Source: Oligoflexia bacterium
GTDB taxonomy: Bacteria > Bdellovibrionota > UBA1018 > CAIPTA01
Reading direction: 5' to 3'
DNA: 64,000 nt
Assembly: GCA_023954355.1 (NCBI GenBank)
Contig: JAMLID010000001.1
Coordinates: 1 to 64,000, forward strand
Part shown: piece by piece, positions 48,190 through 49,555 of the stretch
How positions within the stretch are numbered: position 1 is the first letter of the stretch
Layout: the number at the start of each line of letters is the position of its first letter
Position numbers and translations under genes: made by a program
The notes under the pieces: generated by a model
Seen by the model: only the letters and a program-made list of their open reading frames with translations
Told to the model about the DNA's origin: nothing
The model's database searches: none

Positions 48190-48399
48190 TGGAAGTGACG
48201 ATAGGCTTCGCCTACTACAATCACGGCTCCTGCCGTTCTTTGCGTAGGCTCCCCGCGTTCACTAAGAAAGCCATCCAAGGCCTTCTTCCCTGCAAGAAGT
48301 CGCTATGGCGACATCCCGCAGGTCGTTCACTTGCTTCGAATCCTAATCTACTAAAACTAAAAAACTCCGCATAGACAAGCCAGCGAAGTTTTTTTAGTT
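48190..48399 (-). mobile_element. Candidate miniature tRNA-targeting element at tRNA-Cys
   Basis: Read in the tRNA direction (minus strand), the tRNA-Cys gene is followed by its terminator, then about 150 bp rich in short hairpins (GTCGC/GCGAC, CTTCTT/AAGAAG, ACGGC-AGGA-GCCGT). It ends in a degenerate copy of the tRNA's own 3' end (T-stem strands GTAGG...CCTAT, then CGTCACTTCCA) at 48190-48205. That copy matches the tRNA's 48400-48415 at 15 of 16 positions. Nothing in it looks coding. This layout is what insertion at a tRNA 3' end leaves behind. The 218 bp further left (47972-48189) show no gene either. Confidence 0.55.
48354..48399 (-). terminator. Intrinsic terminator of tRNA-Cys
   Basis: On the minus strand the stem AAACTAAAAAAACTTCGC pairs with GCGGAGTTTTTTAGTTT (one G-T wobble and one bulge) around a 12-nt loop directly after the CCA end; the second arm carries the T-run. 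Confidence 0.85.
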
Positions 48400-48475
48400 T
48401 GGAGGTGACGATAGGATTCGAACCTACACAACACGGTTTTGCAAACCGTTCCCTTAGCCATTCGGGCACGTCACC
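48400..48475 (-). tRNA. tRNA-Cys (anticodon GCA)
   Basis: A 76-nt cloverleaf on the minus strand with the CCA encoded: acceptor GGTGACG/CGTCACC, D-arm CCC/GGG, anticodon stem ACGGT/ACCGT around TTGCAAA (anticodon GCA), a 5-nt variable loop and T-arm GTAGG/CCTAT around TTCGAAT. Discriminator base U, as usual for tRNA-Cys. It lies 40 bp past the stop of queE on the same strand. Confidence 0.96.
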
Positions 48476-49223: not shown

Positions 49224-49300
49224 GGCTCGGTAGCTCAGTTGGTTAGAGCGTGGCATTCATAACGCCAAGGTCGGCAGTTCGATCCTGCCTCGAGCCACCA
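49224..49300 (+). tRNA. tRNA-Met (anticodon CAT), elongator type
   Basis: A 77-nt cloverleaf with CCA encoded: acceptor GGCTCGG/TCGAGCC (one G-U), D-arm GCTC/GAGC with loop AGTTGGTTA, anticodon loop TTCATAA (CAT), variable AGGTC and T-arm GGCAG/CTGCC. The 4-69 pair is U-A and the D-loop is AGTTGGTTA, both like elongator tRNA-Met; the C4-G69 of the lysidine-modified tRNA-Ile2 is missing. The anticodon stem ends in an A-C mismatch. Ile2 is a minor alternative, since tilS is also present. Confidence 0.93.
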
Positions 49301-49555
49301 CAAAAAAACTCGACGACCCTTTAGGGTTGGCGGGTTTTTTTGTTTTGGTGGGTAGGGGCAGAGAGCAGGATGTTGAAGCAGTTCACAAAACAACCAAGAG
49401 GGTTGTTTTGCATGCGAACGAACTGAGCACCCGAAGGGCAATGGCAGCAGCCAAGTGTGACAATTTTAGCAGCAGGCTAAAATTGCAAAAGAGAAGCTTT
49501 CCCGGAACGGGCGAGGGTCAGGAGACCCGAGTGACATCCTATACTCGAGCCAGCA
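49301..49555 (+). mobile_element. Candidate miniature tRNA-targeting element at tRNA-Met
   Basis: After the tRNA-Met terminator comes a hairpin-rich, apparently non-coding stretch. It includes TTGTTTTG/CAAAACAA-type, CCCG-GAA-CGGG, and GGGTC-AGGA-GACCC stems. It ends at a degenerate copy of the tRNA's own 3' end (ATCCT-ata-CTCGAGCCAGCA at 49536-49555) that matches 49282-49300 (ATCCT-gc-CTCGAGCCACCA). The start shares a GTTTTTT-T/A-GTTTT, GGATxxxGAAGCA series with the tRNA-Cys element, so the two look homologous. The 49556-49719 remainder has no gene. Confidence 0.55.
49302..49341 (+). terminator. Intrinsic terminator of tRNA-Met
   Basis: An A-run, then a stem ACTCG-A-CGACCC with GGGTTG-G-CGGGTTTT around a short TTTA loop, ending in a run of seven T. 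It closely resembles the tRNA-Cys terminator in form. Confidence 0.85.

Follow-up and report, generated by a model that had tools for sequence, protein, structure and literature searches.

A second 3′ end behind the tRNA-Cys gene

The stretch of DNA analysed here (the window) comprises positions 1 to 64,000 of contig JAMLID010000001.1 from an Oligoflexia bacterium (GenBank assembly GCA_023954355.1), and the element in question is a short unit that lies on the minus strand directly behind its transfer RNA (tRNA) gene for cysteine. The complete tRNA-Cys (anticodon GCA) occupies positions 48400..48475, with its last 21 nt, C56 to A76, at 48420-48400. It is followed by a 210-bp segment that contains no gene (48190..48399) and whose boundaries were set by analogy with the empty sites of relatives described below. 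Reading away from the tRNA, this segment is made up of a terminator-like hairpin with a T-run, recognised from its sequence (48353..48399), an antisense copy of the tRNA-Cys T-arm (TAGGATTCGAA, 11/11 positions; 48335..48345), a folded core of about 130 nt with three hairpins (48289..48322; 48262..48288, with GGA in its loop; and 48210..48251, closed by an AGGA tetraloop), and a second copy of the tRNA-Cys 3′ end (48190..48210).

The original prediction for this locus had described a terminator and a hairpin-rich spacer followed by a sequence matching the last 16 nt of the tRNA at 15 positions, with a lost T-loop. This observation was confirmed. The hairpin lies at 48399-48353, the 15/16 match at 48205-48190 was reproduced and becomes 19/21 when counted from C56 (48210-48190), and both T's of the TTCGA in the T-loop are gone from the copy (GTAGGCGAAGCCTAT). 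In the whole window, on both strands, the best other ungapped match to the 21-nt end reached 14/21, and the score of the second copy was not attained in any of 300 shufflings of the downstream DNA. The prediction had also hung on the spacer not being a known RNA, and no Rfam family was detected in it at either gathering or permissive thresholds. What had been overlooked was the 11-nt antisense copy of the T-arm, together with the recurrence of the arrangement behind the neighbouring tRNA-Met and other tRNA genes.

A unit family in Bdellovibrionota

Related genomes contain spacer DNA resembling that of the window's tRNA-Cys, located there behind other kinds of tRNA. A covariance model of the unit core was built from an alignment of 16 units, including that of the window, which is itself matched by the model at 48199..48348 (minus strand, 135.6 bits). 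Matches were obtained in at least 31 of the 58 genomes of the class and at least 66 of the 368 genomes of the phylum Bdellovibrionota, these counts being lower bounds as some of the candidates per genome were scored rather than all. In total, 171 distinct units were recorded, 136 of them with a tRNA or transfer-messenger RNA (tmRNA) gene upstream on the same strand, which lies within 200 nt in 110. The targets cover at least 34 tRNA anticodon kinds plus tmRNA. Filled and unfilled sites are mixed among the tRNA-Cys genes of the class, and the presence of the unit differs within single genera. No unit was found in phages, plasmids or IMG/VR with one exact pattern and one query sequence. The open-access literature, to which the search was restricted (subscription papers being outside its scope), yielded no description of the family, which is apparently undescribed so far.

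A scan of the whole genome to which the window belongs revealed that roughly one in three of its 32 tRNA genes is followed by a second 3′-end copy. The matches amount to 21/21 for tRNA-Ser-GGA, 19/19 for tRNA-Asn, 20/21 for tRNA-Gly-TCC, nearly 29 nt for tRNA-Arg-TCG and 18/19 for tRNA-Ser-GCT, and second copies are also present behind tRNA-Leu-TAA, tRNA-Gln and other tRNAs.

Empty sites in relatives

Insertion at a tRNA 3′ end, leaving a whole tRNA plus its decaying old end, had been proposed for the window on condition that empty sites could be found in relatives. Such sites do exist. In Bdellovibrio, the genus of genome G193, the unit lies behind tRNA-Gln in six genomes and is absent from most others. 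In the empty genomes G200 and G203, tRNA-Gln is directly followed by TTTCCATCATTAAG, whereas in the filled genome G193 this DNA comes after the second copy of the tRNA-Gln end, with upstream synteny kept. The break in the alignment of G193 with G200 and G203 falls exactly at C56 of tRNA-Gln, and C56-A76 is the part duplicated by the insertion. A second case was found at tRNA-Cys, where comparison of the filled G004 with the empty G040 again gives a duplication of C56-A76. The proposed insertion is thus borne out to the base in relatives. For the window's own tRNA-Cys locus, no exact empty allele was found, the empty sites at hand being those of tRNA-Cys in another genus of the class and of tRNA-Gln in Bdellovibrio. 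The displacement of the old 3′ end is shown by the anatomy of the window's locus and by the empty sites in relatives, so that the insertion interpretation of the original prediction is supported and can be extended.

Copies, antisense segment and fold

The element is composed of three parts: a terminator, a segment antisense to the T-arm of the target tRNA, and a core whose fold is conserved. In 89% of the units, at least one of the two copies (antisense or second 3′ end) matches the unit's own tRNA above threshold, in comparison with 2.6% in a control with other tRNAs. Of the 67 second copies measured, 35 start at C56 and nearly all start no more than a few nucleotides away from it; the copies extend 0-71 nt beyond the CCA. 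The antisense segment is almost always complementary to tRNA positions 56-63, with complementarity weakening toward the CCA. In units whose second copy differs from the tRNA, the antisense segment matches the tRNA and not the copy, part of this count being due to the shortened T-loop. A maintained helix between the antisense segment and the second copy was rejected, since the antisense segment follows the tRNA where the copy differs.

The fold of the core is supported by two-sided changes in 1047 alignment cells, versus 287 in shuffles, with 90.9% of cells paired and a register much better than any slid register; the alignment had been fitted to the model, which favours this support. Hairpin loops with GGA amount to 44%, versus 13.5% in shuffled units (120 units, alignment A2), with a mean of 1.2 per unit, and many loops carry ACGA or GUGA in place of GGA. 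The GGA enrichment lacks an explanation if the module acts as DNA alone.

Most loci hold one or two units with no genes between them, and tandem units with long repeats occur at some. In three cases (L254/L263, L069/L261 and L180/L262), near-identical units behind a single tRNA or tmRNA gene enclose some 2.5 kb of gene-bearing DNA, and two of these three segments carry toxin-antitoxin genes (a HEPN-MNT pair; a BrnA antitoxin with DUF4160). They could be relatives of the miniature element that carry cargo, or products of recombination between units. A cassette-array reading was set aside, most loci having one or two units without intervening genes.

Islands with large serine recombinases

At 10 of the 20 loci inspected, a gene for a large serine recombinase converges on the 3′ end of a tRNA or tmRNA gene and in most cases extends into it. 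The ten abutted genes are of nine kinds (Leu twice, tmRNA, Ala, Val, Glu, Met, Arg, Pro and His). Three large serine recombinases of the window's genome have the full domain set. Furthermore, some islands of 4-33 kb that start at a tRNA with a large serine recombinase end in a unit and a second copy. In the 33-kb island of G031, the 21-nt copy at the unit's end predicted the target tRNA beside the recombinase: a pattern search placed this sequence at two sites of the contig, the end of the unit and the end of the tRNA-Phe that precedes the recombinase. The 4.3-kb island of G051 consists of tRNA-Lys, a serine recombinase and an ATPase, followed by the unit and second copy. In G018, an 18-kb recombinase segment has a second copy at each boundary, with the same core before both in the compared stretch, the tRNA being off the contig. 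In addition, on contig C38 of the window's genome a recombinase separates tRNA-Leu-TAG from a unit with an antisense part that matches this tRNA. These arrangements support the proposal, made at the outset, of a miniature integrative element or the remnant of a larger one.

Two further observations concern integrase-related sequences near units. Small open reading frames (about 190 aa) that encode a helix-turn-helix together with half a PF07508 Recombinase domain adjoin units (L342, G031:C17 at ~188.2 kb; L265:7408-7971), and short partial PF07508 matches of this type recur across the class. At the tRNA-Arg-TCT of the window's genome, a tyrosine-integrase island (L252, G000:C56:40209-52320) has displaced that tRNA's unit by 12 kb; its direct repeat begins near nt 61 of the tRNA, versus C56 for the units.

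Origin of the unit

We consider it probable that the window's unit is a miniature, non-autonomous derivative, devoid of cargo, of serine-recombinase islands that target T-loops, with the core and the tRNA 3′ end acting as an attachment (att) module. The direct repeat of the unit starts inside the T-loop (C56), as in T-loop islands. The window's unit encodes no large serine recombinase, whereas the related islands of G031, G051 and G018, which end in such a unit, do; the window segment has no gene and is therefore classed as an island derivative and not as an island. It shares an end with autonomous elements, the unit core being found at the far ends of the islands of G031, G018 and G051. Like other miniature derivatives, it exists in several dispersed copies and its insertion is shown by empty sites in relatives. 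The unit is read as the far-end attachment module because of the recombinase-island anatomy in G031, G051, G018 and C38.

According to this scheme, a miniature element would enter the T-loop of tRNA-Cys in such a way that the tRNA still has a complete 3′ end and its former one (C56-A76) is pushed to the far side, where it would decay. The core and tRNA 3′ end would correspond to the attP/attR module of serine-recombinase islands targeting the T-loops of tRNA and tmRNA, of which the miniature copies would have lost all else; any movement of these copies would depend on a recombinase supplied in trans. We infer from the anatomy that a serine recombinase moves the unit, and the recombination step, the choice of recombinase and the role of the fold are likewise derived by inference. 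The second tRNA 3′ end of the window would then be the scar of a gene-less element that belongs to a phylum-wide family.

Several data weigh against this proposal. The C38 recombinase does not adjoin tRNA-Leu-TAG, and several genomes with multiple units (G023, G004, G007 and G028) have no PF07508 recombinase. For the majority of the recombinase islands, no repeat marking the far end was detected in the retrieved DNA, past which most of these islands extended, and no far-end second copy was found for either serine-recombinase island on contig C20 of the window's genome. Repeats reaching 71 nt beyond the CCA suggest later duplication or gene conversion as well. Serine-recombinase attachment sites usually span about 50 bp, and a conserved fold of 130 nt is unusual and unexplained. 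Finally, no excision circle or activity was seen.

The unit might instead be an independent element, a hitchhiker that shares tRNA hot spots and is moved otherwise, for example by a tyrosine recombinase or by recombination between repeats. The 3′ ends of tRNA genes are general hot spots, a tyrosine-integrase island is indeed present at tRNA-Arg-TCT of this genome, and the genomes with units but without PF07508 would be accounted for. However, the repeat of that tyrosine-integrase island does not begin at C56, and in G031, G018 and G051 the unit and second copy are the island end itself, and in G031 and G018 the unit is not preceded by any further copy of the tRNA end. We regard this explanation as unlikely. 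Two other candidate mobilisers, a reverse transcriptase and a Y1 (RAYT-type) transposase, were rejected as not linked to the units: RVT_1 is absent in G000, G001 and G026, and Y1 is absent in G026, G004, G009 and G023.

With regard to the folded module of the serine-recombinase islands, it is conceivable, if rather improbable, that it chooses the target: the segment complementary to the T-arm of one tRNA, presented by the conserved fold at the end of the element, would direct a promiscuous recombinase to that tRNA gene by serving as a guide or a folded site of recombination. If so, altering the complementary segment should retarget the element to another tRNA.

The units could also be structured RNAs in tRNA trailers that benefit the host, either as a sponge for CsrA or as a switch, the antisense T-arm then having two alternative pairing partners, the 3′ end of the tRNA and its copy. 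The covarying fold, the enrichment of GGA loops, the presence of CsrA in 20 of 20 genomes checked and an antisense part that tracks the tRNA where the copy differs are all consistent with such a role. On the contrary, the loops often carry ACGA or GUGA instead of GGA, genomes in which no unit was detected have CsrA just as those with units do, members of a single genus may carry the unit or lack it, and a unit at an island end is separated from the tRNA by 4-33 kb. In addition, the unit of one genome (presumably Bdellovibrio bacteriovorus HD100; unit at about 2,712,809-2,712,958) is not among eight published attack-phase small RNAs. A host-beneficial RNA is, in our judgement, a quite improbable origin, and a CsrA-type regulatory RNA is a less likely explanation; the sponge was disfavoured as the GGA enrichment is not strict and CsrA is universal.

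Tandem duplication of the tRNA end with later homogenisation, in the style of E. coli tyrT, would agree with the tandem units with long repeats, but a common core behind 34 tRNA kinds and tmRNA is impossible by in-place duplication and the empty sites demonstrate insertion; it is very improbable, and largely refuted because the core is shared across tRNAs. Chance similarity or a decayed tandem tRNA gene can practically be dismissed given a match unique in the window, its recurrence in the genome and the phylum-wide family, tandem-tRNA decay being excluded by the core common to different tRNAs.

Comparison with known systems

Bacterial islands classically insert at tRNA genes, an integrase as a rule being specific for a single tRNA. 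The 178-bp repeats of E. coli tyrT, with the rtT RNA, lie behind one tRNA and each end in about 19 bp of its 3′ end; they differ from the units in being confined to that tRNA, with no core common to different tRNAs, and the spacer studied here has no Rfam match. Bacterial elements of the miniature inverted-repeat transposable element (MITE) and repetitive extragenic palindromic (REP) types are, like the units, short, non-coding, hairpin-rich, dispersed and non-autonomous, whereas the units occupy a fixed position at tRNA genes, bear copies specific to the target at either end and are not linked to a Y1 transposase or reverse transcriptase. Integron attC sites and the IS110 bridge RNA may offer a parallel to the module, the former as a folded recombination site and the latter as a structured guide RNA at an element end, each with its own recombinase (IntI or the IS110 DEDD recombinase).

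A close likeness was found in the ssrA islands of Dehalococcoides, which carry the serine recombinase DsiB beside the gene, are bounded at the far side by a direct repeat of the last 20 bp or so of that gene, and occur in tandem (PMC3146451). They have one target (ssrA) in one genus, a 15-bp far-end motif and protein-coding content, whereas the units have at least 34 tRNA kinds plus tmRNA as targets, a folded module that includes a segment antisense to the target, and miniature forms devoid of genes. Mycobacteriophage Ms6 similarly uses a T-loop crossover as attB and restores the tRNA 3′ end, but it is an integrase phage with a single target kind, for which the abstract describes no miniature family or folded module (PMC1762012). 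Neither the antisense-bearing folded module nor the wide tRNA range is described for either system in the parts of the two sources covered here.

The family described here comprises one kind of module, with a conserved fold and a target-complementary segment, behind at least 34 tRNA kinds and tmRNA in a phylum that includes Bdellovibrio. Through it, the switching of integrative elements from tRNA to tRNA becomes directly testable, and a class of repeated tRNA ends overlooked by annotation pipelines is accounted for. The more surprising question that it raises is the job of the folded, target-complementary module.

Neighbouring tRNA-Met and other repeats

A similar arrangement is present in the window behind the neighbouring tRNA-Met (CAT; 49224..49300, plus strand), which is followed on the same strand by a second, more decayed element with another spacer type (49301..49555). 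This element comprises a terminator (49301-49342), an antisense-like copy (49346-49361) and a degenerate second 3′ end of tRNA-Met (49536-49555). Another dispersed repeat (GGTTCTTCTAGGTTCGCAGTGGGTGG...) was also observed behind several tRNA genes of this genome (L012, L013, L023 and L027).
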